Source: Dehalococcoidia bacterium
GTDB lineage: Bacteria > Chloroflexota > Dehalococcoidia > DSTF01 > JACRBR01
NCBI GenBank assembly: GCA_021731085.1
Contig: JAKFYB010000016.1
Location: 1 to 64,000 of the forward strand
Direction of reading: 5' to 3'
DNA length: 64,000 nucleotides
In this document: positions 32,382-57,359 of the stretch, one piece after another
Layout of the letters: every line of letters starts with the position of its first letter
How positions within the stretch are numbered: position 1 is the stretch's first letter
Translations under genes and position numbers: made by a program
The notes under the pieces: model-generated
Told to the model about the DNA's origin: nothing
The model's database searches: none
Seen by the model: the letters and a program-made list of their open reading frames with translations, nothing else

Positions 32382-35300
32382 ATGAGCAACGATTTGGCTG
32401 GGCAGGACGCGCCGGCAAACGCGAGCGGCGCGGTTTCGGGCGGCGCCGACTCCGGTCGCACGGACGCAGCGCTACGTGCAATCACAGGCGGCATTGCGCA
32501 CACCGCCGGTGCGGAGTTCTATCGCGCACTCGCGCAGGAATGCGCGCGCGCGTTCGGCGCCTGCGACGTGGCGATTTGCGAGCTGACGCCTGACGGCACG
32601 CGCACGGTGCTGCTTGGCTCCTGGACGCGGTCCGGGCTTCCTCCGGCCAGCGAACGGGTGTTGCCCGACAGCGCCGCGGAGCTTGTCATGCAGGCTGGCG
32701 TCATACACCACGCGGCAGGTGCTCGCGCCGAGCACCCGCAGGACGACAGGCTCGCCCGGCTTTACGCCGAGAGCTACCTCGGCGTGCCCATCGTCGACGG
32801 ACGGGGCGATGTCGTGGGTGTGGTCGAGCTGACGAGCGACGCGCCCGGCATCGAAATAGAGCCAGCCGCTACGATTGTTTCTGCGCTGGCGTCGCGCGTC
32901 GTCGCGGAACTCGAACGGTCGCAGGCGGAGGCAGCCCTTCGCGACAGCGAATTGCGCTACCGCACCCTTATCGAGGACTCCTTTCACCTTGTGGCAGAGA
33001 TCGTCGACGAACGCTTCGTGTTCACGAGCGCGGGCTATGGCGATGCCCTCGGTTACGCGCCCGAGGACGTGCTGGGCGGCAGCCTATACGACCTGATCCA
33101 CCCTGATGACCGCCGCAGCGTCGCGGCCGACCTCCAGGCGATGGTCGCACAGCGGCGTTCAGCGCGGTTCACCGTGCGTATGCAGCACCAGGACGGATCA
33201 TGGCGCTGGATCGAGAGTACGGCGCGCGCGTTCCGCGCGTCCACGGGCGAGTACAGGACGACGCTTTTCTCGCGCGACATCACAGCGCAACAGGAAACGG
33301 AGCAGGATCTTCGCGAGAAGGAGCGCCGTTTTCGAACGCTAGTGAACGACCTTCAGGTCGGCGTGCTGTTGCATGGACCCAATGGCGAGATCCTGCATGC
33401 AAACGACACGTGCCTGCAGCTGCTCGGCCTGACGCACGACCAGATGCTCGGCAGCACGCCGCATGATGTGCCGTGGGAACTTGTGCGCGACGACGGTTCG
33501 CCGTTGCCGCTCGACGAACAACCAGAAGTGGTGGTGTTGCGCACCGGAAAACCCGTTCGCGATGCCGTCGTCGGCATAAGGCGAGGTGACGATGCTGCCA
33601 TCCTCTGGCTGCTCGTTTCGGCGGAGCCACGCATGGGCCCCGATGGCGAGCGCCAAGTGGTCGTCACATTCACAGATATCTCGCTGCGTTTGGCTGCGGA
33701 GGAACGGCTACGCGATAGCGAAGAGCGCTTCCGCTTGCTCGCGGAAAACGCAAGCGACGTGATTCTACGCTATTCACCGTCCGGCGCCTGCACGTGGGTG
33801 TCGCCCTCGGTGGAGACCGTAACGGGTTACGCGCCCGAGGAGTTTATCGCCCTCCGGCCCGAGCAGACTGTTCTGCCCGAAGACTACGCGCGCGGCCAAA
33901 AGGTCTGGACGCGCGCTGCCGAAGGCTGGAGTGGCACCGTCGAGTACAGGTTTCCGCACAAGGATGGCCGAACAATCTGGCTCGAACTCACAAGCAAAGC
34001 CGTTCGCGATGGCGAAACGGGCGCCATTACCGAGATACACATGTCCGGCCGCGACATCACTGCCAGAAAGAAGGCCGTGTCGGAACTTCGCGAGAGTGAA
34101 GAACGCTTCCGACTTCTCGCGGAGAACGCGAGCGACATCATCGTGACATTCGCCCCCGACGGCGAATGCACGTGGGTCTCGCCTTCGATCACAACGATGG
34201 CTGGATACCTGCCTGAAGAGCTGATCGGCACGTACCCACGCTTTCTCGTGCATGCGGAAGACCTGGAGGAAGCCGCGGCCAAGCGCGCGGAGGTGCTCGC
34301 TTCCGACGGAATCACGACCTCCGTGTTTCGCTTTCCTCACAAGGATGGGCATTTCCTCTGGATGGAGAGCAAGAGCAAATCTATCCGCGATCCTCAGACT
34401 GGCGACGTCATACAAATACAACTCACTGCCCGGGACGTTACTGCGCGCAAACAGGCCGAGGATGACGTCCGCGAGAGTGAAGAGCGCTTCCGCCTTCTTG
34501 CCGAAAACGCGACCGACATCATCGCGCGCTTCGATCCATCCGGCGTATGCACGTGGATTTCGCCGTCCATCGAAGTCGTGAGCGGCTACGCGCCGCAAGA
34601 CATCATCGGACAGTTCCCCCGCGTGTTCATTCACCCGGACGATGTGGAGAAAGCGCTCGCAGCGAAGCAGCAGGCACTAGACGCGACGAGCAGCGTTACG
34701 GCGGAGTACCGCTTTCCGCGCAAATGCGGCGGCTATTTGTGGATCGAGAGCAAGAACCAGGCCGTGCGCGCGGAGGATGGCACTGTCATCGAGATCCAGA
34801 TGTCTGCGCGTGACATTACGGCGAGGAAACAGGCCGAGGATGACGTGCGCGAGAGCGAGGTGCGCTTTCGTACACTGATCCAGAATCTCGGCGCCGGGAT
34901 CCTGCTTCTTGACGCCGAAGCCAAAATCCTCGTAGCGAACGAAGCCGCGCCGCGCTTGCTTGGCGTGAATCTGGATCAGCTTGTTGGGCATACGCCTTAC
35001 GACCCGACATGGCGCACGGTTCACGAGGACGGCACGGACTTCCAGGACGAGGAACGGCCCGTGCTCCGCGCGATCGCAACGCGGCAAGCCGTACAGGACG
35101 TCGTGATGGGCGTCGACAGCCCCGAACATGACCGGCGTATCTGGCTCTTGGTGAGCGCACAACCCCTGCTCACCGCGGACGGAGACGTACACCAGGTCAT
35201 TTGCTCGTTCAGCGACATCACAGCGCGCCTGGCAGCCGAGAGTGAACTGCGGGAACGCGAAGAGCAGTTCCGCTTGTTGGCCGAGCACTCGACCGACCTC

Positions 35301-38300
35301 ATCGGGCGCTATGCCTTCGATGGCACATGCCTCTGGATTTCGCCATCCTCGCTCGCGATCACCGGATACGCGCCGGACGAACTAATCGGCAAGGACGCGG
35401 CACCCAACTTGCATCCGGACGACGTGACTGCCGTGCTCGAGATCATGCAGCAGATGGCCGATGGCCGCATGAACACGACCTCGAGCTTCCGGTTCCTCCA
35501 CAAGGACGGCCACTACATATGGCTCGAGGCGAAGAGCCGGGCGATCTGCGACGAGAACGGCGCGATCGTCGAAGTGCAATCGACGACGCGCGATGTCACT
35601 GCACGCATCCAGCGCGAAGAGGAGTTGCAAGAGAGCGAAGCGCGATTCCGCCTGCTGGCGGAGAACGCGACCGACATCATCGCGCGCTACGACGATGAAG
35701 GAACCTGCCTTTGGATCTCGCCTTCGGTGACGACCGTGACGGGCTTCCTACCGGAAGAGATCGTCGGCATGCAGCTTCCACAGCTCGTCCACCGCAAGGA
35801 CACCGCGATGTTGGACGACGCATCGCGCCTGATGAGCGACGGCACAACAGCGTTCAGCACAACCTTCCGCGTGCCACACAACAACGGCGGCACCATCTGG
35901 CTCGAAGCGACAAACCGCATGATCCGCGACCCGCAAACAGGCCGCGTGATCGAGATTCACACATCATCGCGCGACATCACCGCGCGCAAGGAAGCGGAGG
36001 ATGCATTGCGACACAGCGAGGAGCTATTCCGCGCGACCCTTGAGTCCACGGCCGACGGCATCCTCGTGACCAAGCCGGGTGGCACGCTGCTCTACTGGAA
36101 CAGCCGCGCCGCCCAGATGCTCCGTGTTCCCCAGCAAGTTCTGGATAGCCACGACTCGATCGCGTTTGTCCAGCACATTGTCGAGCAAGCGACCGACCCG
36201 CAGGGACTCGTGCTGGCGATCAGTTCGCTGCCACTGGACGAGCCTGCGAATGCGGGCGCCTGGGAGGGTTTCGGTGGCAAGCGGTTCGAGATCTATGCGC
36301 ACCCGCTCGAAGCCGAGAACGGCGAACGTCTGCGCGTTTGGAGCATCCGCGACGTGACCGCGGAGCATGAGGGAGAGATCGCACTTCGTGAGAGCGAGGA
36401 ACGCTTCCGCTCACTGGCCGAGCATACAACGGATCTTGTGCTCGGCATTGGCGGCCCCGGGATCATCGAGTACGTAAGCCCCAACAGCGCGAACATCATC
36501 GGCTACAAGCCGGCATCTCTCGTCGGCATCAACGCGATGGATCTAGTCGTGGAAGACGACCTCGTAAGCTTCCTCGAAGAGTTCAGCCGCGCGGCCGATG
36601 CACGAACGTCCGCGGTGTCACTGCTGCGCGTGAAGCACGGCGACGGTACGATTCGGTGGTTCGATCTCACCGTGAACTTCTACGCGACGGACGATGGCGA
36701 CCTGAAGGCCGTGGTCACTGCGCGTGACGTCACGGAGCAGAAGATCGCGCGAGATGCGTTGCGCGAGAGCGAAGAGCGCCTGCGCGCCGTCGTCAACAGT
36801 GCACCTCTCGCACTGGTCGCCGTGAACGCCGAGCGAACGTTCATCCTCGCTGAGGGCGAAGCGCTGCGTGCCGTCGGCCTAACATCTCAGGATCTCCTCG
36901 GCACCACTATCGATGAGTTCTACAAACCCTTCCCTGCCGTAATCGCAAGCTTTGAGCGCACGCTCGCCGGCGAATCGTTCACGGCCCTCGAAATGCTGGG
37001 TGGCATTACCTTCGAGGCGCATTACGAGCCGACAGTCGATGCAGACGGACGAACCACGGGCGTAATCTGCATCGCCTACGACGTGAGCAGCCGCGTAAGC
37101 GCCGAGGAGGCGCTCCGCGACAGCGAGGAGACCGCGCGCGCGCTGCTCAACGCGCCTACGGATGGCGCCGTGCTCGTCGACCGTGAAGGCATCATCCTGG
37201 CGATGAACGCCACAGCGGAAAAGCGTTTCAACGACCACGCCGCTAAGCAGGGCCGAAGCGAGCGCAGCTTCATTGGCACGTGCGTATTCGACCTGTTTCC
37301 GCCCGACCTCCGCGATCAGCGCAGGTCGCGAAACGACGACGTATTTGAGACGGGCGAACGGAACCATTACGAGGACGAGCGCGACGGCATCTGGACTGAC
37401 GTGACGATTGACCCGATCCACGACGCCGACGGCGCTGTCGTCCGCCTCGCGATCTTCTCGCGCGACATTACGGATCGCAAGCGCGACGAGGCGGCACTCA
37501 AGAAGCGCTCCCGGGAGCTTGAAGCGCTTAACGACTACCTCGAGAAGACGCACACCGAGCTGGAGCGCTCACAGGATGAACTGCGCGACGCGAGCGAGCA
37601 GCTCGCGCAGTTGCTCGACGCGGAACAGGCGCGCTCCAAAACCGATCCGCTGACCGGCGTGCTCAACCACGGCGCCATCTCCGAAGTGATTACGGAGGCG
37701 ATCGCCGCCGAGATCAACTTCGCTGTCGCAATGGTGGATGTGGACGGCATGAAGGCGGTTAACGACACCTACGGCCACCAGGCCGGCGACGACGTACTGC
37801 TGGCAGTCACGAAAGCGATCGGCCGGGGTGGCGCGATTGTTGGTCGATACGGCGGTGATGAGTTTCTCGTTGCGCTGCTCAACGCCGATGGCAACGAAGC
37901 ATCGGCGTATAAGGCTGCCGTGGATGCCGCACTCGTGGACGCGCACGTCATCGATCCGGAGTCCGGAGCGCGCGTGCCGGTGGTGGCCAGCGTCGGCATC
38001 GCCTCCTACCCCGCTGATGCGGCGGCGCTGCCCGAACTCATCGAGCGGGCTGACGAAGAGATGTACGTCGAGAAGCGGGCGCGACAGGGCGTCGGCACCG
38101 GCTTGTCGTCTTCGCGCATCCTTGGTTCCGAGCGGGCGGCGCGCATGGTGGGAGAACTGGTGCCCCTGCTGACCTCGGAGGAGTCGCTGGCCGACAAGCT
38201 GCGGCTCGTCGCGCACCGTGTGTCCGTGGGCGGTGGCTATGCCGGTGTGAACTTCGATGTCTTCGTTGAGGAGGAAGCTGGCAACCAGCCATCGACGGCG

Positions 38301-39320
38301 AGCCAGAATGCGTTTACCAAAGCGCCTGATGAGCTGATCGAAGAGTGGAACCGCCAGCAGCGCGCGGGCACGAACGACACCGGTGTCGGCGATCTCTTAC
38401 GCGAGACGAGACGCCCGCTGATCATCGAGAGCATCGCTGAGAGCCAGTACGTCACGGACGACCAGCGCAAACTGCTGCTGTCAATCGGGATCCTCTCGGC
38501 GATCGTCGTACCGCTGTTCGCCGATGACGCGATGGTCGCGACGATGTCCGTCGGTAGTAAGGAGCCCGAGGCGTTCGGACACAACGACGAGCAGTTCCTG
38601 ACGGCCGTCGCCGGCCAGGTCGCCGCCATCATCCGCATGGCACGGCTCGTCGAGCACCTGCAGCAGGCCAGCGACAGGCTCGAGGCTTCGCGCGACGAGA
38701 CGGTGATGCTCCTTGCCGCAGCCGCAGAAGCGCACTCGCAAGCAGCGAGCCTCCACTACGAGAACGTGCGCGTCGTCTCGGAAGCAATCGCCGTTGAGAT
38801 GGGGATGGATGCGGAACACGTACGCGAGCTTGGCATGGCCGCCGCGCTGCACGATATCGGCAAGATCCGCGTGCCTGACTCCCTCCTTTCGAGCCCTGAG
38901 CGTGTGTCACCAACCACAGGTGCCGCGCCCGGACACGAAGAGTGGGAGTTGCTCAAAGAACACTGCATCCACGGGCGCGACTTTCTGGAACGCACCGCCG
39001 GATTCGAGCTGGCGGCGCGAATCGCATACAGCCACCATGAACGCTGGGACGGAGGCGGCTACCCGGAAGGCATCGCCGGAGAGGCCATCCCGCTGGAGTC
39101 GGCCATCATCGCCGTCGCCGACAGCCTCGACGCCATCATGTCGGAGCGCGCGTACCAGGCGGGCCGCCCCCTCGACATCGCGATGGCAGAGATCATCACA
39201 AACCGCGGGACGCAGTTCCGCCCGGACGTCGTCGACGCGCTGGTTGTGATCTACGAACGCGGTGGACTCGCCGGGGTGTGGGACGGTGGAGAGGCTGAGG
39301 AAGAGGCGACGGCAGCCTAG
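32382..39320 (+). CDS. Giant cyclic-di-GMP sensor enzyme: GAF, 12 PAS, GGDEF, GAF, HD-GYP
   Basis: 2312 residues, no membrane segment, ATG after GAGGG. Order: GAF (about 35-180), 12 PAS/PAC modules beginning near 186, 311, 444, 571, 697, 823, 956, 1083, 1210, 1336, 1461 and 1579, a coiled coil (1700-1750), GGDEF (1753-1903), GAF (1912-2095) and HD-GYP (2106-2302). GGDEF has intact GRYGGDEF but no RxxD inhibitory site. HD-GYP has ALHDIGKIRVPDSLL, HHERWDGGGYPEG and VADSLDAIMSERAY, so both synthesis and breakdown of c-di-GMP look possible. PAS 3, 4, 5, 7 and 8 are close copies (ERFRLLAENATDIIARF type); PAS 2 and 6 form a second type. It ends five bases before the convergent glycosyltransferase gene of the polysaccharide locus. 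Confidence 0.93.
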   Translation: MSNDLAGQDAPANASGAVSGGADSGRTDAALRAITGGIAHTAGAEFYRALAQECARAFGACDVAICELTPDGTRTVLLGSWTRSGLPPASERVLPDSAAELVMQAGVIHHAAGARAEHPQDDRLARLYAESYLGVPIVDGRGDVVGVVELTSDAPGIEIEPAATIVSALASRVVAELERSQAEAALRDSELRYRTLIEDSFHLVAEIVDERFVFTSAGYGDALGYAPEDVLGGSLYDLIHPDDRRSVAADLQAMVAQRRSARFTVRMQHQDGSWRWIESTARAFRASTGEYRTTLFSRDITAQQETEQDLREKERRFRTLVNDLQVGVLLHGPNGEILHANDTCLQLLGLTHDQMLGSTPHDVPWELVRDDGSPLPLDEQPEVVVLRTGKPVRDAVVGIRRGDDAAILWLLVSAEPRMGPDGERQVVVTFTDISLRLAAEERLRDSEERFRLLAENASDVILRYSPSGACTWVSPSVETVTGYAPEEFIALRPEQTVLPEDYARGQKVWTRAAEGWSGTVEYRFPHKDGRTIWLELTSKAVRDGETGAITEIHMSGRDITARKKAVSELRESEERFRLLAENASDIIVTFAPDGECTWVSPSITTMAGYLPEELIGTYPRFLVHAEDLEEAAAKRAEVLASDGITTSVFRFPHKDGHFLWMESKSKSIRDPQTGDVIQIQLTARDVTARKQAEDDVRESEERFRLLAENATDIIARFDPSGVCTWISPSIEVVSGYAPQDIIGQFPRVFIHPDDVEKALAAKQQALDATSSVTAEYRFPRKCGGYLWIESKNQAVRAEDGTVIEIQMSARDITARKQAEDDVRESEVRFRTLIQNLGAGILLLDAEAKILVANEAAPRLLGVNLDQLVGHTPYDPTWRTVHEDGTDFQDEERPVLRAIATRQAVQDVVMGVDSPEHDRRIWLLVSAQPLLTADGDVHQVICSFSDITARLAAESELREREEQFRLLAEHSTDLIGRYAFDGTCLWISPSSLAITGYAPDELIGKDAAPNLHPDDVTAVLEIMQQMADGRMNTTSSFRFLHKDGHYIWLEAKSRAICDENGAIVEVQSTTRDVTARIQREEELQESEARFRLLAENATDIIARYDDEGTCLWISPSVTTVTGFLPEEIVGMQLPQLVHRKDTAMLDDASRLMSDGTTAFSTTFRVPHNNGGTIWLEATNRMIRDPQTGRVIEIHTSSRDITARKEAEDALRHSEELFRATLESTADGILVTKPGGTLLYWNSRAAQMLRVPQQVLDSHDSIAFVQHIVEQATDPQGLVLAISSLPLDEPANAGAWEGFGGKRFEIYAHPLEAENGERLRVWSIRDVTAEHEGEIALRESEERFRSLAEHTTDLVLGIGGPGIIEYVSPNSANIIGYKPASLVGINAMDLVVEDDLVSFLEEFSRAADARTSAVSLLRVKHGDGTIRWFDLTVNFYATDDGDLKAVVTARDVTEQKIARDALRESEERLRAVVNSAPLALVAVNAERTFILAEGEALRAVGLTSQDLLGTTIDEFYKPFPAVIASFERTLAGESFTALEMLGGITFEAHYEPTVDADGRTTGVICIAYDVSSRVSAEEALRDSEETARALLNAPTDGAVLVDREGIILAMNATAEKRFNDHAAKQGRSERSFIGTCVFDLFPPDLRDQRRSRNDDVFETGERNHYEDERDGIWTDVTIDPIHDADGAVVRLAIFSRDITDRKRDEAALKKRSRELEALNDYLEKTHTELERSQDELRDASEQLAQLLDAEQARSKTDPLTGVLNHGAISEVITEAIAAEINFAVAMVDVDGMKAVNDTYGHQAGDDVLLAVTKAIGRGGAIVGRYGGDEFLVALLNADGNEASAYKAAVDAALVDAHVIDPESGARVPVVASVGIASYPADAAALPELIERADEEMYVEKRARQGVGTGLSSSRILGSERAARMVGELVPLLTSEESLADKLRLVAHRVSVGGGYAGVNFDVFVEEEAGNQPSTASQNAFTKAPDELIEEWNRQQRAGTNDTGVGDLLRETRRPLIIESIAESQYVTDDQRKLLLSIGILSAIVVPLFADDAMVATMSVGSKEPEAFGHNDEQFLTAVAGQVAAIIRMARLVEHLQQASDRLEASRDETVMLLAAAAEAHSQAASLHYENVRVVSEAIAVEMGMDAEHVRELGMAAALHDIGKIRVPDSLLSSPERVSPTTGAAPGHEEWELLKEHCIHGRDFLERTAGFELAARIAYSHHERWDGGGYPEGIAGEAIPLESAIIAVADSLDAIMSERAYQAGRPLDIAMAEIITNRGTQFRPDVVDALVVIYERGGLAGVWDGGEAEEEATAA

Positions 39321-39325
39321 GCGAC

Positions 39326-40720
39326 TTAGCTCATCGTGTCGTCTTTGAAAATGTACTTCGCCATCAAATCCTTGCGTATCGTGGCGACCTTGCGTTTCAG
39401 CCCGAAGCGCGCCTCGTAGTACACGCGCGACGCGAACCAGTCCGCCGTTCGCGTTGCGACGGGAAGGCGCTGCTCCGTGCGACTGACAACGCTCGTCGAG
39501 GGGTCGCGGCAGAACTCGATGAGCGGCGCCATCGTCTGCTCCCACGTGAACTCGTCGCGGATGGTCTCCATGTTCTTCTTGCAGCGCGCGTAGAACTCAC
39601 GGTCGCTGACGAGACGGTCAATGGCGCCCGTAAGCGCGTCCAGATCGCCTTCCGCGATGCGTACGCCGAGCGTACGTTCGTGCACCCAGTCGGCTACGAT
39701 ATCGCCCTCCGTGCAAACGAGCGGCAGGCCTGCCCACATGACGTCGGTGTAGCGGACGCGCCAGGAGTAGCGGGTCTCGAGGCTATCGAAGTACGTGCAG
39801 ACCGACATGTCGGACTCGAGCAGATACTGCTGCGTGTCGTCGTTTTTCGCCCAGGTGAAGTTGAAGATGACGTGGTTGTCCAGGATGCCCAGCTCCTCGC
39901 ACAGCGCGATCGCGCGTTTCGTCACGCCACCGCCGAGTCCTTCGAGCGTCTTCGTTCCGTAGCTGTCTGGATGCTCCGTCCCCATGAAGAACAGCCGCAG
40001 GTTCGGGTGCTTGTCCTTCAAGCGATGCACGGCGCGCAGCAGCAGGTCGATGTCGTACCAGTCGACGATGATGCCGTTCCAGATGATCACGAAGTCGTCG
40101 GGTCCGATGCCGGGAATGACGCCGCGGAGGCGCGGCGGGCCGGGGATCGGCGTCGCCGGACGAATACCGATCGGCGCGATCTTGAACAGGCGCTCGAGGC
40201 CGGGGTCCGTCTCGAACATACGCGGCGTGATCATGCCCATCGTCCCCATGACGCCGAGGATCATGTCGCGCTGCCGTTCGTTCGAGACGAGGATGGTGTC
40301 GGCTATCGACATCTGCACCATCAGGTCGCGACGCTTGAAGTCGATCCAGGCTCGGCGATGCTGGCGGCCGGGGTCGCGTTTCGTCAGCTCGACCCACTCC
40401 GTGATGAGCGGCGTGAAGAGATCGAGCACGAGCTTCGACTTGCGTGCCGCAGGGATCATCTTGATCGGGAAGCGCGTACTGACAATGACATCGTTCTCGC
40501 GAGCGAGCTGTCCCAGGTTGTTGCCGTCAAAGCGCTCGAATGCAAAGGGCACCGTCGCCGGATCGAGGTCGCTTGGCGTCGTGCGAGATATCGCGAGCGT
40601 CACCTGCGCTTCGGGCATCTGCTCCTGCAGGACGCGCGCCATGTGATACGCGCGGATGCCGCCGGACGCCATCGTGCTGCCGACGGTCGTGTGCGACATG
40701 ACGAGAATCTTCTTCGCCAT
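39326..40720 (-). CDS. Glycosyltransferase, GT4-like (paralogue 1 of 3)
   Basis: 464 residues from ATG 40720 with GGAG five bases upstream. GT-B fold: N-terminal SGGIRAYHMARVLQEQMPEA, C-terminal nucleotide-sugar half with VIIWNGIIVDWYDIDLLLRA, RLFFMGTEHPD and CTYFDSLETRYSWRVRYTDV. It shares block order with the next two genes: a GIR..MA.VL..Q.P start, a central IRP segment, WNG..V.WYD, and a late STYYDNLETHFSFRVRYLD-type block. It likely adds one sugar to a lipid-linked or nascent surface glycan. Last gene of a minus-strand operon. Confidence 0.85.
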   Translation of the reverse strand: MAKKILVMSHTTVGSTMASGGIRAYHMARVLQEQMPEAQVTLAISRTTPSDLDPATVPFAFERFDGNNLGQLARENDVIVSTRFPIKMIPAARKSKLVLDLFTPLITEWVELTKRDPGRQHRRAWIDFKRRDLMVQMSIADTILVSNERQRDMILGVMGTMGMITPRMFETDPGLERLFKIAPIGIRPATPIPGPPRLRGVIPGIGPDDFVIIWNGIIVDWYDIDLLLRAVHRLKDKHPNLRLFFMGTEHPDSYGTKTLEGLGGGVTKRAIALCEELGILDNHVIFNFTWAKNDDTQQYLLESDMSVCTYFDSLETRYSWRVRYTDVMWAGLPLVCTEGDIVADWVHERTLGVRIAEGDLDALTGAIDRLVSDREFYARCKKNMETIRDEFTWEQTMAPLIEFCRDPSTSVVSRTEQRLPVATRTADWFASRVYYEARFGLKRKVATIRKDLMAKYIFKDDTMS

Positions 40721-40722
40721 CG

Positions 40723-42078
40723 TCACTCCATCCCGCTGTAGCCGCTGCGCAGGAACTTCTTGCGGTAAGCGAAGCGCAATTTCTCATGCGCCTCCGAGAT
40801 CGCCCAATCGAGGCTGCGGTAGGCGAGTGGGAAGTAACGGTCGCGCTTTTCCGGCCCGCGCGGCGGCGGCGAGGTGCAGAAGTCGATGACGGGCGCGAGC
40901 GTGCGCTCCCAGCGGTATTCCTCGCGCATCACATCGAGGTTGCGGCGGCAAACGTCGCGTGCCGACGGATCACCGAGGCGCAGGATGGCTGCCGCAAGTG
41001 CGTCGACATCGCTTGCGGGGACTGATGCGCCGAGGTTGCGCGAAGCGACCATCTCCGAGACGACATCGCCCTGCGTGCAGATGATGGGCAACGCCGCCCA
41101 GAACAGATCGAGATACCGCACGCGGAACGAGAAGTGCGTTTCGAGGTTGTCGTAGTACGTCGAGACGCCGATGTCGGACTCAAGCAAGTGCTGTTCAGTC
41201 GTCTCGGGATCCGCCCAGCCGTGGTTGAAGAAGACGTGCTTGTCGAGAATGCCAAGCTCTTCAGCCAGTTCCATCGCCACGGTCACCCAGCCCGTGCCCA
41301 TGCTCTTGTCCTCGAATCCACTCTTCGCCTGCGGGTATGACGTGCCAAGAAACACCAACTTCACGTCAGGGCGCGTTTGGCTGACGACAGCTATCGCGCG
41401 GAGCAGCGTCTCGACGTCGTACCACTCGATGATGGTGCCGTTCCAGAGCAGGATGAGGTCGTCTTCGCCGAAACCCGGTCGCACGCCGCGCATGACGTTG
41501 GCGCGCTGCACAGGCTCGTGTGGCCGGATGCCGAGCGGCGCGATGGCGATGCGGCTTCGCAACGACGGGTCGCCTTCAAACTGTCGCGGCGTCACCATCC
41601 CCATCGTCCCCATGATGCCGGCTACGAAGTCACGTTGCCGTTCGTTCGCGCAGAGCACAAGGTCGGCGACGGTCAGCTCCAACATCAGATGCTTGCGCTT
41701 CGCTTCGAGCAATGCGCGCCGGTGCCGCTTACCCACCCAGCGCGACATGCTCGCCCACTCCGTCACCAGCGGCGAGTACATGTCGAGCACGAAGCGCCCG
41801 CGCATAGCGGCCGGCAGCAGGCCCGTCGGGATCTGGCCGCTGACAATGACGTCGCTCCGCATCGCGAGCCGCACCAGCTCGGCGCCCGTCGCCTGCGTGA
41901 TCGCGAACGGCAGCGATACGGGGTCGATGTCGGAGACGTCGCCGGGCGGCATGGCGAGCGTGACGCGCGCGCCGGGAACCTGCTGCTGAAGGACGCGCGC
42001 CATGTTGAAGGCGCGAATGCCCGGCGCCGCCATGCGCGTGCCAACGGGACCAAGGCTGATGCAGAGAATGTCCGTCAT
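40723..42078 (-). CDS. Glycosyltransferase, GT4-like (paralogue 2 of 3)
   Basis: 451 residues from ATG 42078, which overlaps the previous stop (ATGA). Blocks parallel to its neighbours: ILCISLGPVGTRMAAPGIRA, NMARVLQQQVPGARVTLAMP, ILLWNGTIIEWYDVETLLRA and STYYDNLETHFSFRVRYLDL. Same cytosolic GT-B role as the flanking paralogues, presumably with different donor or acceptor. Confidence 0.85.
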   Translation of the reverse strand: MTDILCISLGPVGTRMAAPGIRAFNMARVLQQQVPGARVTLAMPPGDVSDIDPVSLPFAITQATGAELVRLAMRSDVIVSGQIPTGLLPAAMRGRFVLDMYSPLVTEWASMSRWVGKRHRRALLEAKRKHLMLELTVADLVLCANERQRDFVAGIMGTMGMVTPRQFEGDPSLRSRIAIAPLGIRPHEPVQRANVMRGVRPGFGEDDLILLWNGTIIEWYDVETLLRAIAVVSQTRPDVKLVFLGTSYPQAKSGFEDKSMGTGWVTVAMELAEELGILDKHVFFNHGWADPETTEQHLLESDIGVSTYYDNLETHFSFRVRYLDLFWAALPIICTQGDVVSEMVASRNLGASVPASDVDALAAAILRLGDPSARDVCRRNLDVMREEYRWERTLAPVIDFCTSPPPRGPEKRDRYFPLAYRSLDWAISEAHEKLRFAYRKKFLRSGYSGME

Positions 42079-43409
42079 CGGATCCAGATCGTCGCGGCGC
42101 GATGTGTCACCCACTGCGCCCAGGCGCCGCCCAGCATCGCCGTGCGCCGCCACTTCGAGAGCGCGCTGCTCTTTGGGTCTTTGAGATAGCGGATGAGGTG
42201 CTCGAACGACCTCGTCCAACCCATCGTCTTGTTGTTCTCGCGGATGTTCGCCTTTACGCGCGCAAACAGCGCCGGGTCGTCGAGCAGCTTCTCGATCGCA
42301 GCGGCGAGCGCGTCCGGATCCTTCTCCGGCACCGCGAACCCCAACTCGCGGTCACGGACCATATCGGCGAGGACATCGCCTTCCGTGCAAATCAACGGTA
42401 GTTCGGCCCAGAAGACGTCCACGAAGCGCGTACGGAATGAGAAGTGCGTTTCGAGATTGTTGAAGTACGTGCACACCGCGAGGTCCGCTTCAAGCATGTA
42501 GTCCTTCATGCGCTCGTACGGCACCCACGCCATCTCGAAGAAGACGCTGCTGTTGTACAGACCGAGCTCGCGCGAGACGCGGATCGCCTCGTGGAAGCGG
42601 GCGCCGAGGCCCACGGGCCCCATGCCCGGGTATGCGCCGCCGACGAACACGAGCTTCACGTCGTCGCGATGCTCGCAGATCTTCGCCATCGCCTGCAGCA
42701 ACGTCGCAGGGTCGTACCACTGGACGATGCCGCCATTCCAGATCAGCAGCTTGTCCGTCTCCTTGATGCCGGCGAAGACGCCTTTGACCGCGGGCTTGCC
42801 GTGTTCCGGCAGCGGGTCAGGCCGGATGCCGTGCGGCGCAGGCTCGATCAGGTTGTGCATGCCAGGGTCGTAGTCGTACACCAGCGGGTCGATCAGACCG
42901 AGTCCGATCATCGCGCCGATGTAGTAGTCCTTTTGCCGGTCGTTCGCCGTCAGCAGGAAGTCGCTGTACAGCAGCTCAGCGCCGATTCGGCGGCGCTTGT
43001 GGCCGATCCAAACATCACGCTTGAGGTCACTGCCGATGGCGACATCCTTCGCGAGGTCGAGCCACTCGATGAAGTAGATGGTGTAGTAGTCCAGCACGAA
43101 CTTCCGAAACGGGAACGCGAACATCGCCAGCACAGGAAAGTCCGTCGCGATGATGATGTCGTGCCGCATGAACAGCTTGGGGATCGAGAACGTCGAGTAG
43201 ATCTCCACGTCGTAGCCGATCTGCGCGGCTTCGGGCGGGATGCGGCTGCCGCGCGGCAGGGCGAGCGTGATCTGCGCCTCCGGCATCTGCTCGCAGAGGA
43301 CCTCCGCCATGTGGCGCGTGCGGATCCCCGGACTCGACATCACGGGACCGAACGGCGAGTTACAGAAGAGGAGGATGCGCTTGCGGCGATGGCCGTTCTG
43401 GTTCGTCAA
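42075..43409 (-). CDS. Glycosyltransferase, GT4-like (paralogue 3 of 3)
   Basis: 444 residues. The start is taken as TTG 43409, overlapping the previous stop (TTGA). No ATG lies near, and upstream frame belongs to the preceding gene. Blocks: ILLFCNSPFGPVMSSPGIRT, RHMAEVLCEQMPEAQITLAL, LLIWNGGIVQWYDPATLLQA and CTYFNNLETHFSFRTRFVDV. Part of the coupled operon 46922 to 39326. Confidence 0.84.
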   Translation of the reverse strand: MTNQNGHRRKRILLFCNSPFGPVMSSPGIRTRHMAEVLCEQMPEAQITLALPRGSRIPPEAAQIGYDVEIYSTFSIPKLFMRHDIIIATDFPVLAMFAFPFRKFVLDYYTIYFIEWLDLAKDVAIGSDLKRDVWIGHKRRRIGAELLYSDFLLTANDRQKDYYIGAMIGLGLIDPLVYDYDPGMHNLIEPAPHGIRPDPLPEHGKPAVKGVFAGIKETDKLLIWNGGIVQWYDPATLLQAMAKICEHRDDVKLVFVGGAYPGMGPVGLGARFHEAIRVSRELGLYNSSVFFEMAWVPYERMKDYMLEADLAVCTYFNNLETHFSFRTRFVDVFWAELPLICTEGDVLADMVRDRELGFAVPEKDPDALAAAIEKLLDDPALFARVKANIRENNKTMGWTRSFEHLIRYLKDPKSSALSKWRRTAMLGGAWAQWVTHRAATIWIR

Positions 43410-44524
43410 CGTGTGCCGTTCCCGCCGGGCTTCGCAGCCGGCCACTTGATGCGCTTGACGATGTTCGCCCAACTATACATATCGAGAAACGGCGCGGGTA
43501 CGTTACCCGCATTCGCGCCTAGCGGACGCAACAACGCATTCGCGAAGCCGTCCCAGCCGTCAACGACCGTCAAGAACTCTCCGCAGGCTGCCCGGTCGAT
43601 GCCCTCCGCTCCGACCGTGGTCGACACGAGAGGGCGCGCGCAGGCGATGCTTTCCAGCACCTTGAGACGTGTGCCGCCGCCGCTCGCGACGGGCACGGCG
43701 ACGGCATCAGCTGCGTTGATGTACGGCGCGATCGACGGGACAGGGCCCGTGAACCGCATGCGCGGGTGCGTGTAGAACGACCGCAACTGCTCACCGTTCT
43801 TGCCCGCGATGACGAACACATAGTCCTGCGTGATCGCGTCGAGCCGTGGGATGAGTTCGTTGGCGATGAGGTCGACGGCCTCGCGGTTGGGCGCGTACGA
43901 AAGCTGCCCGAAGAACAGCATGATGTTCGTGGCGGGCGCGATGCCAAGCTCTGCACGAATGCGCGCGCCTGCCCTTGCATCGGGATGCAACAAACCAGGA
44001 TCGATGCCATTCGGGACGATCTGCAACTTGCGGTCAGGCACGCCGCGCTGCCTGAACCGCGCGTGATCCTCGGCCGACACTGTGAGGACGCCAGAGGCGA
44101 GCCGCGTCACAACACGCTCGAATTCGGACACCGCGGGCCACGCGCGTGAGCCGGTGCTGCGGAATCGGTCAGCCTCCACGTTCGGCGCGTCGTACACGAA
44201 CGGCACGCCGAGCCTACGCGCGAGGTACGCCGCGTGCAGGCCCGGCCACGGATACTCGGCGACGATCACGTCCGGTCGCTCGCGCTTCGCGATGTCGTGC
44301 GCGCGGCGCAGAAAGCCGGCATCGATGATCTGGTGGCGGCGGCCTTCGGGCGTCGTTTCGAAGATCCTCGTTGACAGATCGCTCGTCGCGTTGCCCGCAG
44401 AGCGTGGCGTGAACAACAGCGTCGCGTGTTCAGGCGCGAGGTACTTGAGGATGTTGTACGCGCGGACACGGCCGCCTTCGTCCGGCGGAAAGATCGGGTA
44501 GGGGACGATCATCGCGACCTTCAC
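43406..44524 (-). CDS. Glycosyltransferase family 4
   Basis: 372 residues from GTG 44524 overlapping the previous stop (GTGA), with GAGGTGG upstream. Typical GT4: VAMIVPYPIFPPDEGGRVRA, IVAEYPWPGLHAAYLARRLG, QIVPNGIDPGLLHPDA, IMLFFGQLSYAPNREAVDL and the donor site VASGGGTRLKVLESIACARP. Clearly a different subfamily from the three paralogues downstream. It transfers a sugar from a nucleotide donor in the cytosol. Confidence 0.9.
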   Translation of the reverse strand: MKVAMIVPYPIFPPDEGGRVRAYNILKYLAPEHATLLFTPRSAGNATSDLSTRIFETTPEGRRHQIIDAGFLRRAHDIAKRERPDVIVAEYPWPGLHAAYLARRLGVPFVYDAPNVEADRFRSTGSRAWPAVSEFERVVTRLASGVLTVSAEDHARFRQRGVPDRKLQIVPNGIDPGLLHPDARAGARIRAELGIAPATNIMLFFGQLSYAPNREAVDLIANELIPRLDAITQDYVFVIAGKNGEQLRSFYTHPRMRFTGPVPSIAPYINAADAVAVPVASGGGTRLKVLESIACARPLVSTTVGAEGIDRAACGEFLTVVDGWDGFANALLRPLGANAGNVPAPFLDMYSWANIVKRIKWPAAKPGGNGTR

Positions 44525-45435
44525 CAACCACCTCGACGCTGTCCGGAACGGCCGAGATAGCCGTCGATTAGGCCGTCGATTCGGCCGCGCGCCTCCTCGC
44601 GATCACTGCGTCGGAGCGCCTTGAACGCCTCGATCGTCACTAGCAGTTTCTGCGCGAGCAGCGACGTCACGCGCCGCCAGCCCGTTGTGCGGCGCGCGAA
44701 GAAACGCACGCGGTTGCGCGTGAAGTAGTACGCCTGTGCTCGATTGAAACGCGCCGAACCACGGTTGCCCGTGCTGGCCGAAACCTTATGCCGGACGACG
44801 GGACCGGGCGCGACGAACGACACGTAGCCAGCTTTCCGTGCGCGTTCGCAGAGATCGACTTCGTCCCAGAAGTGGAAGTACGTCTCGTCCCAGCCGCCGA
44901 TTCGTTCGAGCACGTCGCGGCGGACGGCGATCGCGCTGCCATTCACGTAGTCAACGGTGCGGCCCGTCATCGGCCCGCGTCCGCGGTTGAACCCGGCGTG
45001 GCGCGTGTAGCCGAGCGTGCGGTTGATCGTCCCGCCGACGGCCCAGATCTTCGCTGGATTGTCGTAGTAAACGACGGGCGTTCCCGCGACGCCAACCGTC
45101 GGGTGGTCATTGAACGCGGCAGCAAGCGCTTCGAGCAAGCCCGCAGGCACGACGACGTCATTGTTGAGGAACAACACGGCATCAATGCCTTCGCCCAACG
45201 CGCGCGCACCTAGGTTGCATGCGGCCGCATATCCGCCGTTGTTCGCCGACGTGACAACCCGGACGCCAGCGCACGCCGCGTTCGCGCGCGCTTCGTCGAA
45301 ATCACCGCCGCCGTTGACGGCGAGAACGACGGGCGCGCCACCAGCCGCCACGGGCGCCAGCGACGCAAGGCACTCAAGCAGGTCGTCCATACCACGCCAG
45401 TGCACCACGACGACGCCGACCGTTGTTGTGCTCAC
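44521..45435 (-). CDS. Glycosyltransferase family 2 (rhamnosyltransferase-like)
   Basis: 304 residues from GTG 45435 overlapping the stop of the upstream gene. GT-A fold: VGVVVVHWRGMDDLLECLAS, TSANNGGYAAACNLGARA, AVLFLNNDVVVPAGLLEAL (DxD-like NND), NGSAIAVRRDVLERIGGWDE and FHFWDEVDLCERARKAGY, the usual rhamnosyltransferase/WcaA-type set. Cytosolic, assembling the repeat unit of a surface glycan. Confidence 0.9.
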   Translation of the reverse strand: MSTTTVGVVVVHWRGMDDLLECLASLAPVAAGGAPVVLAVNGGGDFDEARANAACAGVRVVTSANNGGYAAACNLGARALGEGIDAVLFLNNDVVVPAGLLEALAAAFNDHPTVGVAGTPVVYYDNPAKIWAVGGTINRTLGYTRHAGFNRGRGPMTGRTVDYVNGSAIAVRRDVLERIGGWDETYFHFWDEVDLCERARKAGYVSFVAPGPVVRHKVSASTGNRGSARFNRAQAYYFTRNRVRFFARRTTGWRRVTSLLAQKLLVTIEAFKALRRSDREEARGRIDGLIDGYLGRSGQRRGGW

Positions 45436-46922
45436 GGCGTGTACGTGAACACGGCGTCACCGGACTGCAGCACAGGGGCTGTCTGCCCACTCTGCACGAC
45501 GACAACATTCACGTCGCCGTAGTACAACTGCGCCAGCGTGATCAGATGCGAGTCCGGCGAGAGGCCACCGCGCGCCGGGCTGCCAACGAGATATAGCGTG
45601 CCGCCGTCGCCGATCTCCGGACCATCGTTCTGCAGCGTGATGGCGTAGCGCTCGAATGGCCGCGTATTGTGGCGCAGGTTGCTCGCGCGCTCAGCCGTGT
45701 AGAGCGCAACCGGAACGATCGCCGCCACCACGATCCATGGCGCGATGGGCGCGATCCGCGCGCGCAGCTCCAGCGGCAGAAGATCGCGCACGAAGAGCAC
45801 AGCTGTGACCAACAATAGTGCGCCGGCGAATCCGGCGATGTACAGCAAGCGGCCCTGCTGGCCAAGAACGAACGTCGCGTCAGGCAGCAGCGCGAGCAGA
45901 AACCATGACACCGCGAAGACGCCGAGGCCCCAGAACGGGCGGCGGTACGCGATCCCGCACGCAACAACGATCAGCACGAGAGCTGCGATAAGTTGGATGC
46001 GCTCGGCAAACGACTGCAGCGCATCGCGCGATGTCAGCGTCTCGACGGGGACGACCATCATGCCGAAATACCAGCCGTAGTTGGCAAACATGTGGAAGCC
46101 AAAGTGGAACCCTTCGACAGCGATGTGGTCGCGCACGTAGAACTGCACGAGCATCGCGCTGGCGGCAGGCACCACGAACGGCACAAGCGGCCACCACGCT
46201 CGCAACCGCAGCGCGTCCTTCGGCTGGCCGTCAACGCAGAAGACGTACACGACCAAAACGCCCACGAGCGTCACGGTCGAGGAGTGCATCAGCAAGGCTG
46301 TTACGAACATCAGGACCGACCCTGCGTAGCAGAGGCGGCTGGTGGTTTGTGACTGCTGACTTGTGTTTGATGGCGACTGATCGCGGGACTTCATGAAGAG
46401 CAACAGCGCGGCGATGTACGGCAACGCGGCAAACACGCGGTTGCCGGCGGAGACCCACCCTACGGCGTCGACGTACGCCGGATGAAGCGCGAAGATCGCC
46501 GTCGCCAGGTTCGCGAAACCGCCTTCGCCAAGAAGACGTCGAAAGACGAACCAGGCGAGCACGACGCAGGCGAGGTGCAGGGCGACGACGACGGCGTGGT
46601 ACGGCAGCGCGTTCAGGCCGAAGACTTCGTACTGGAGCTTCCAGGCAATGGGATACAGCGGCCGGTAGCGATTAAACTCGTAGTCCAGTTGGGTCTCCCG
46701 CGGGTCGAACGACGTCAGTGTGTAGTCCGCGAGAGTGTTCGACTGGGCGCCGCGGAGGAACCAGAAGTCGTCGGTCGCGAACCAGTCGTCCAGCGCCGGG
46801 ACGTAGACAGCGAACGCCAGAAACAGGATGACGGCGAGCATCCACGGGGACGACAGAACGCTCGCCCAGTCTCGGGACGGGGCTTCGGATACGGATGCAG
46901 AATCGCGCGTGATGACGGCCAT
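45432..46922 (-). CDS. Polytopic membrane glycosyltransferase (GT-C like)
   Basis: 496 residues with about 10 hydrophobic segments. The first luminal loop carries ALDDWFATDDFWFLRGAQSN with an acidic pair after the first membrane helix, as in GT39/GT83-type enzymes that use polyprenyl-phosphate sugars. FALHPAYVDAVGWVSAGNRV is also typical of these TPR-less O-mannosyltransferase relatives. The C-terminal 90 residues are extracytoplasmic. It heads the coupled minus-strand operon and is divergent from the sulfotransferase genes. Confidence 0.75.
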   Translation of the reverse strand: MAVITRDSASVSEAPSRDWASVLSSPWMLAVILFLAFAVYVPALDDWFATDDFWFLRGAQSNTLADYTLTSFDPRETQLDYEFNRYRPLYPIAWKLQYEVFGLNALPYHAVVVALHLACVVLAWFVFRRLLGEGGFANLATAIFALHPAYVDAVGWVSAGNRVFAALPYIAALLLFMKSRDQSPSNTSQQSQTTSRLCYAGSVLMFVTALLMHSSTVTLVGVLVVYVFCVDGQPKDALRLRAWWPLVPFVVPAASAMLVQFYVRDHIAVEGFHFGFHMFANYGWYFGMMVVPVETLTSRDALQSFAERIQLIAALVLIVVACGIAYRRPFWGLGVFAVSWFLLALLPDATFVLGQQGRLLYIAGFAGALLLVTAVLFVRDLLPLELRARIAPIAPWIVVAAIVPVALYTAERASNLRHNTRPFERYAITLQNDGPEIGDGGTLYLVGSPARGGLSPDSHLITLAQLYYGDVNVVVVQSGQTAPVLQSGDAVFTYTP

Positions 46923-56240: not shown

Positions 56241-57359
56241 TCAGGCCGCCTGTGCGAGCGAGGGAGACAACAGCACACGCGCCTTGCCGTCGCGCTTCGC
56301 CTGACCGAGCGCCTGGTCGGCACAGTTGACCGCGTCGTCGAGCGATTCGGTCGTGATGGGGTACACGGCGACGCCGGCGCTGAGGCTGATGCCCGTGGCC
56401 GTGCGTACCTGGTCGAGGCTGCGTTGGCCCATCATCATCGCATCTGCCGTCGAGTCGACATGCGCAAGCACGATCAGTTCGTCGCCGCCATATCGGGCCA
56501 CGGCATCCGCATCACGGAAGCACTTACGCAGCTCTTCACCGATGGCAATGAGCACCGTATCGGCGTGGACGTGTCCTCTTGTTTCGTTGATCTGCTTGAA
56601 GTTATCGACGTCGTACATGATGACGGCGAGCGGACGCGTCGGCGTGTTGTGCGCGTCGAGGATTTCGCGGAAGCGGCGCCGATTCTGCAGGCCGGTCAGC
56701 GGGTCGGTCATCGACGCCTCCAACACCATCTCGCGCAGCTTGCGCGTGCTGGTCGAGATCACGTCACAGTTCATCGCCGTGAAGATCGCCATGATCGAAG
56801 CGACGACGGACAACTGCACGTTCATCTCACCGCGCCCAAGGCTGTCGGCGATCGCAATACCAGCCCACATGTTGGCGACGGCGAACACGGCGAACGCGAC
56901 GACGTACTTGGTGGAGTGAAACGTTGAGAGCGACATGATGATCAGGTAGTAGCCGACGAAGATCGGAAAGTCCGGCTGCGCGACCGCAATGATCGCCAGC
57001 GTGACGACGAACACATCGCTGAACGGGCTGACATCGCGATGAATCCAGGTCTTGTCAGGCCAGCGGATGCAGATGCCGAACATCGCGCAGGCGTACACCA
57101 GCAGCCCGACGCTGCTCACCAGCCACCACGCAAACTCCATAGGCAGGACGCCAAGCAGGATCAGCGCACAGTACGTGAGCGCAATAACGACGCGCAGGGC
57201 GACAGCTCGCGGCCAGTAGTCCGGGTCGACGACATCCACCAGCGGCACGTGCGACGCGTGCGAAACGAGCGCGCTTTCCGTGGCCGCCCCATTCGGTTCG
57301 GTTGTCTGCTGTCGACGCTCGTGCTTCATCGTCGCCTCGGGTTTCCTGCCCATGCGCAT
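56241..57359 (-). CDS. Membrane-bound diguanylate cyclase (GGDEF)
   Basis: 372 residues from ATG 57359 with GGAGCGC upstream. About six membrane segments between residues 55 and 200, then a GGDEF domain: TDPLTGLQNRRRFREIL, YDVDNFKQINETRGHVHADT and ARYGGDELIVL. The inhibitory I-site is present as RDAD five residues before GGDEL. It should make c-di-GMP with product feedback. The membrane part is a sensor of unknown type. It closes the right side of the polysaccharide locus, mirroring the giant c-di-GMP protein on the left. Confidence 0.9.
   Translation of the reverse strand: MRMGRKPEATMKHERRQQTTEPNGAATESALVSHASHVPLVDVVDPDYWPRAVALRVVIALTYCALILLGVLPMEFAWWLVSSVGLLVYACAMFGICIRWPDKTWIHRDVSPFSDVFVVTLAIIAVAQPDFPIFVGYYLIIMSLSTFHSTKYVVAFAVFAVANMWAGIAIADSLGRGEMNVQLSVVASIMAIFTAMNCDVISTSTRKLREMVLEASMTDPLTGLQNRRRFREILDAHNTPTRPLAVIMYDVDNFKQINETRGHVHADTVLIAIGEELRKCFRDADAVARYGGDELIVLAHVDSTADAMMMGQRSLDQVRTATGISLSAGVAVYPITTESLDDAVNCADQALGQAKRDGKARVLLSPSLAQAA

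Follow-up and report, generated by a model that had tools for sequence, protein, structure and literature searches.

A gene of this Dehalococcoidia bacterium, at positions 32382-39320 (+ strand) of the window (the whole 64,000-nucleotide stretch of DNA that was analysed), encodes a long multi-PAS c-di-GMP signalling protein; its layout is real, and its kind is already known. To judge from the sequence, the PAS array grew through duplication within the gene. As a whole, the protein is best explained as a one-component sensor in which repeated type A PAS modules are coupled to a cyclase that lacks RxxD product inhibition and a probably weakened HD-GYP domain, a reading to which we give an even chance.

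The ATG-started frame is intact, contains no internal stops, and specifies 2312 residues. The host genome assembly (3.58 Mb, 52 contigs) holds a single full-length copy. Together, Pfam and a locally built PAS profile give the domain order GAF, 12 PAS, GGDEF, GAF, and HD-GYP. Pfam detects PAS families across the entire array, GGDEF at residues 1753-1901, GAF at 1996-2084, and HD_5 at 2113-2282, and the local profile finds exactly 12 PAS modules within residues 186-1703. Single-module Pfam scans gave a PAS-clan match above the cut-off in 9 of 9 cases (modules 1, 2, 5, 6, 8, and 9-12); modules 3, 4, and 7 are assigned to PAS by the whole-protein Pfam scan and the local profile. The 2312-residue c-di-GMP protein with 12 PAS domains described in an earlier note is thus borne out by the frame, by Pfam, and by the PAS profile. 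The strongest hydrophobic stretch lies inside the second GAF, so that no membrane anchor is indicated, and the protein is probably soluble and cytoplasmic. Its parts are as follows.

32382..39320, + strand: whole gene, 2312 aa
32514..32915, + strand: N-terminal GAF-like domain, residues 45-178 (GAF_3, 29.8 bits, barely above the cut-off of 27)
32937..33308, + strand: PAS 1, 74% identical to the orthologue and the best conserved of the sensor modules compared
33309..33707, + strand: PAS 2, type B
33708..34085, + strand: PAS 3, type A
34086..34466, + strand: PAS 4, type A, paired with PAS 5 in the tree
34467..34844, + strand: PAS 5, type A, modelled with a canonical PAS fold (pLDDT 84.8)
34845..35246, + strand: PAS 6, type B, with the one B module observed in the orthologue as its nearest relative
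35247..35624, + strand: PAS 7, type A
35625..36005, + strand: PAS 8, type A, paired in the tree with the first A module of the orthologue
36006..36383, + strand: PAS 9, of an unrelated type
36384..36758, + strand: PAS 10
36759..37112, + strand: PAS 11, placed among PAS modules from related cassette proteins
37113..37505, + strand: PAS 12
37638..38084, + strand: GGDEF domain with preserved active-site motifs, residues 1753-1901
37824..37835, + strand: I-site position, residues 1815-1818, RGGA in place of RxxD
38367..38633, + strand: second GAF, residues 1996-2084 (best Pfam stretch)
38718..39227, + strand: HD-GYP domain (HD_5)
38736..38738, + strand: Ser2119, aligned with PmGH Asp183
38910..38933, + strand: 8-residue insertion, residues 2177-2184, located after the HD pair and before the next metal-binding His

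Upstream of the gene lies a divergent citrate synthase, and downstream a convergent run of glycosyltransferases; no evident partner gene is found in this neighbourhood. The glycosyltransferase run stops a few bases short of the PAS gene. Three adjacent glycosyltransferase-group-1 genes (window 39326-43472, - strand) are paralogues, the first sharing 45% identity with the second and 37% with the third, and a 496-residue frame within the run (45435-46922, - strand) has no Pfam match at 1e-5. Another GGDEF-like stretch at about 56289-56723 (- strand) is 35% identical to residues 1749-1900 of the PAS protein. Wider relatives of the gene in named genomes amount to 5 loci, all distant, and phage matches to 35 partial records, none of which reaches a coverage of 80%.

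The GGDEF-GAF-HD-GYP output cassette is common in this bacterium's order, being carried by at least 20 other proteins. In a search of 60 related genomes, long matches to the cassette fell in the same order only, among the matches listed. The alignment comprised 20 cassette relatives plus this protein (21 in total) and left out partial matches such as G015:C145 and G016:C72; two of the 20 (L097 and L098) run off their contigs, and L085 is cut at its N-terminus. These same-order proteins, such as L079 (G000:C11) and L082 (G006:C127), share the order of the output domains and are about 40-51% identical to the present protein. They differ from it in the number of PAS modules, which is 0-4 in the 20 relatives and 12 here. 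Nevertheless, 12 is no record, since a 2208-aa histidine kinase (L101 4496-11119, - strand; genome contig G055:C12), found in a different family within the class, contains 13 PAS modules together with a receiver and a GAF; its output consists of the receiver and histidine kinase rather than c-di-GMP domains. L047, from a further locus in another family, has very similar PAS modules 2 and 3 (end branches of 0.15 each in the 73-module tree described below), reflecting a duplication more recent than any in this gene. A limited literature search on tandem PAS duplication and on GGDEF/HD-GYP hybrids returned nothing on this cassette, which does not prove that no such work exists.

By sequence, the GGDEF domain has what is expected of an active cyclase: VDVDGMK, ND, and GGDEF are all present. 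The RxxD I-site lies five residues before GGDEF, and here that position reads RGGA. The earlier claim of a GGDEF domain without an I-site is therefore correct, and the residues expected for product inhibition are lacking. This feature is general, as the Asp of RxxD is found in 0 of the 21 cassettes; 20 of the 21 have the GGDEF motif and one has GGDEL. Mean identity to the other cassettes is 49.6% (versus 52.8%) for the GGDEF domain, third lowest of 21, and 38.0% (versus 42.3%) for the GAF, fourth lowest of 21.

The HD-GYP domain retains the HD pair, the later His residues, HHE, GYP, and the Asp ligand, and thus the core metal ligands. It shares the domain itself, the GYP motif, and the His/Asp metal ligands with PmGH (4MCW), an HD-GYP phosphodiesterase of solved structure. 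However, Asp183 and Glu185 of PmGH are replaced here by Ser (Ser2119) and Ala, respectively, and the position of K317 is Gln. At the Glu185 position the cassette relatives mostly have Thr; the Ala places this protein outside the trinuclear E/D-T-G subgroup, which is defined by Glu or Asp at PmGH 185 followed by T-G (PMC4159591). Mutational work on PmGH found no activity left in D183A and K225A, lowered activity in E185A and D305A, and little effect of K317A and R314A (PMC4159591). Given that K317A and R314A are nearly harmless, just the Asp change weighs much. All 19 cassette relatives that cover this region have Asp at the position, as do 40 of the 44 distinct HD-GYP sequences that are not gapped at it (3 of the 47 distinct sequences have a gap). 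V-cGAP3 (5z7c), whose PDB name is 3'3'-cGAMP phosphodiesterase, likewise has Ser at the Asp183 position, so an enzyme with Ser there may still be active. Of 18 relatives that cover the region, 17 do not have the 8-residue insertion between HD and the next His, and the other, L091, has 6 residues there. Mean identity to other cassettes in this domain is 51.4%, versus 61.4% among the others, the lowest of 19. Thus, the HD-GYP domain, described earlier as complete, is so in its core metal-binding residues; the Asp183 equivalent is not kept, and the domain is the most divergent of the 19.

These features bear on whether the protein is a bifunctional switch, in which GGDEF would make and HD-GYP would break c-di-GMP, with the PAS and GAF inputs deciding the winner. 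Such a switch is a serious, if somewhat improbable, alternative. It agrees with the metal and base residues kept in GGDEF, with the HD, HHE, GYP, and metal ligands kept in HD-GYP (except at the PmGH Glu185 position), and with the pairing of the two domains, whose conservation in 21 proteins of the order suggests that both halves matter. It is opposed by Ser at the Asp183 position, Gln at that of K317, the 8-residue insertion, and a divergence that is concentrated in HD-GYP. Because the Asp183 equivalent is Ser and the HD-GYP drift is the strongest of those compared, make-and-break activity is doubtful, and the breakdown activity of HD-GYP is probably reduced or changed.

The PAS array contains two recurring module types. 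Pairwise identity is 42.1-54.8% among the type A modules (3, 4, 5, 7, and 8; 10 pairs) and 41.4% between the type B modules (2 and 6), whereas A-B identity is 20.3-29.8% (10 pairs) and all 55 pairs not of the same type among the 12 modules span 19.5-37.9%. In a label test that distributed five 'A' and two 'B' labels over the 12 modules, only the real labelling out of 16632 reached the within-type mean of 48.0%. The proposed grouping of modules 2 and 6 as B and modules 3-5 and 7-8 as A is thus upheld, and comparison of the gene with itself finds similarity within types exceeding that between types. The description of the A modules as near-identical is wrong, given identities of 42-55% (and 41.4% for B-B). 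DNA repeats inside the gene occur in five copies at spacings of 381, 378, 402, and 378 nt, which is the module period. In the five module pairs of this gene that were compared, the four-fold degenerate sites that differ range from 12 of 25 to 26 of 31, which indicates that the module copies are old.

The A modules are marked by an unusual Cys-x-Trp. Cys28 and Trp30 occur in all nine A modules of the gene and its orthologue, while among outside PAS modules Cys28 is found in 0 of 97 and Trp30 in 1 of 93. Position 28 of the outside modules is usually occupied by Ile, Phe, Leu, or Val, suggesting that Cys28 probably faces the core. A DNA pattern for Cys-x-Trp-Val/Ile-Ser-Pro-Ser gave 41 matches in the order's 18 genomes, nine of which correspond to the A modules of the gene and its orthologue; of the other 32, 26 were read in frame by eye, and 0 of these 26 are PAS-like. 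The structure model of an A module (PAS 5) places Cys28 and Trp30 on the second strand. A fold search with this model retrieved ordinary PAS domains, mostly ARNT/HIF PAS-B and also bacterial PAS, and gave no clue to a ligand. The model of a B module was poor (pLDDT 51.7) and was left out of the analysis. The presence of Cys-x-Trp throughout the A modules may reflect inheritance instead of function.

The history of the array can be followed with an orthologue (L053) in G001, the one same-genus genome compared, where it adjoins the same divergent citrate synthase (84% identical). Both genes begin GAF-PAS1-B-A. The N-terminal GAF is 44% identical between them (173 columns), and PAS1 74%. Unlike the present gene, the orthologue continues after its B with at least four A modules (B-A-A-A-A), the contig breaking off within the fourth A, and a second B is absent up to the contig end. 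The C-terminal half of the orthologue was not found in G001, an assembly that is 72% complete.

The main tree was built from 73 PAS modules, 18 from the gene and orthologue and 55 picked by BLAST score from 97 outside modules. The nine A modules group in a single clade (support 100/98), apart from the 55 outside modules. Within the tree, modules 4 and 5 of the gene pair with each other (99/94), module 8 pairs with orthologue module 3 (99/96), and the B modules, gene module 6 and orthologue module 2, also pair (99/58). The trees rest on just 127-131 columns, and many forks are weakly supported; in a 16-row tree the A clade is not recovered, an outside long branch falling inside it, the position of module 3 is unresolved, and a single A clade is not rejected (AU p 0.387). 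The single A clade apart from other PAS modules, together with the common Cys-x-Trp, indicates that duplication within the gene enlarged the array. When the orthologue is included, the best trees keep modules 3-4-5 together and place modules 7 and 8 among the orthologue's modules; gene modules 6-8 look like the array of the orthologue, in which at least four A follow a B. All five A modules of this gene as one group are not rejected (AU p 0.089), and AU p values of 0.43-0.65 speak neither for nor against modules 2 and 6 being closest mutual relatives. Orthology of the A modules position by position (3-3, 4-4, 5-5; AU p 0.0254) and in a shifted register (7-3, 8-4; AU p 0.0258) was rejected.

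The order B-A-A-A-B-A-A had suggested that one B-A-A-A block was duplicated, with one A later lost from the second copy. We consider this unlikely. The identity of modules 4 and 8 (53.6%) is among the highest, and with the gene's modules and three outgroup modules alone the joint pairings 3-7/4-8, 3-7/5-8, and 4-7/5-8 are not rejected (AU p 0.125, 0.34, and 0.125). Once the orthologue's modules are included, however, all three are rejected, with AU p values of 0.0018, 0.0245, and 0.0096 for the nine A modules, 0.0012, 0.0143, and 0.0108 for 8 rows, and 0.0064, 0.0363, and 0.0423 for 14 rows. Taken singly, the pair 3-7 is never rejected (AU p 0.185-0.244), and the pair 4-8 is rejected in one set (p 0.0408) and not in three others (0.389, 0.104, and 0.124). 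Moreover, identity at a shift of four modules (44.8 and 53.6%) is no higher than at a shift of one (51.2, 54.8, and 42.1%), and the sequenced part of the orthologue shows B then four A, without another B. Since the pairings tested were strict sister pairs, block duplication is excluded only after the species split, not before. Thus, of the proposed block duplication, duplication within the gene stands, a recent block event is rejected by the AU tests, and an older one is compatible with the data. The simplest history is probably that a B-A unit doubled and that A was then amplified separately in each part. Overall, what the earlier note had observed is confirmed, and its interpretation holds for internal duplication and the absent I-site, not for a recent B-A-A-A block.

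In the sensor favored here, the N-terminal GAF and twelve PAS modules, carried on helical linkers, would feed the GGDEF-GAF-HD-GYP output. Because the A modules all keep the unusual Cys-x-Trp at a probable core position, the A copies are unlikely to act as five different inputs; most likely they still respond to one kind of cue or work as repeated spacers or dimer contacts. The notion of many inputs is thereby weakened for the A modules. Changes in the array would re-align the GGDEF dimer and so set c-di-GMP synthesis free of RxxD product inhibition, while HD-GYP, with its core metal site kept and the Asp needed by PmGH lost, would probably have lowered or altered breakdown. That the output domains are instead mainly a receptor or scaffold, with GGDEF or the divergent HD-GYP binding nucleotide and signalling to partners, fits the HD-GYP drift and the non-enzymatic roles known for other c-di-GMP domain proteins, yet it is improbable given the intact GGDEF catalytic residues and the lack of an evident partner gene among the neighbours.

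RmcA of Pseudomonas aeruginosa, which carries EAL where this protein has HD-GYP, is the nearest studied parallel found. As described in PMC8846402, it too has several PAS modules in one protein governing c-di-GMP synthesis and breakdown; unlike the present protein, it has four, which are predicted to bind different cofactors (PMC8846402). In the cassette lineage, the cyclase domains linked to HD-GYP all lack RxxD, and breakdown by the same protein may take the place of feedback. A long PAS array is commonly taken to mean many inputs. It is conceivable, though we think it improbable, that the A modules are a repeated Cys-containing sensor whose copy number and order vary between close species, and that the sensitivity or cooperativity of the c-di-GMP output is tuned by how many of them stand in series. 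If true, this would be a dose-like use of PAS repeats in place of many separate inputs, and the gene and its syntenic orthologue, with the same module types in another order, can be used to test repeated PAS modules as one strengthened sensor.
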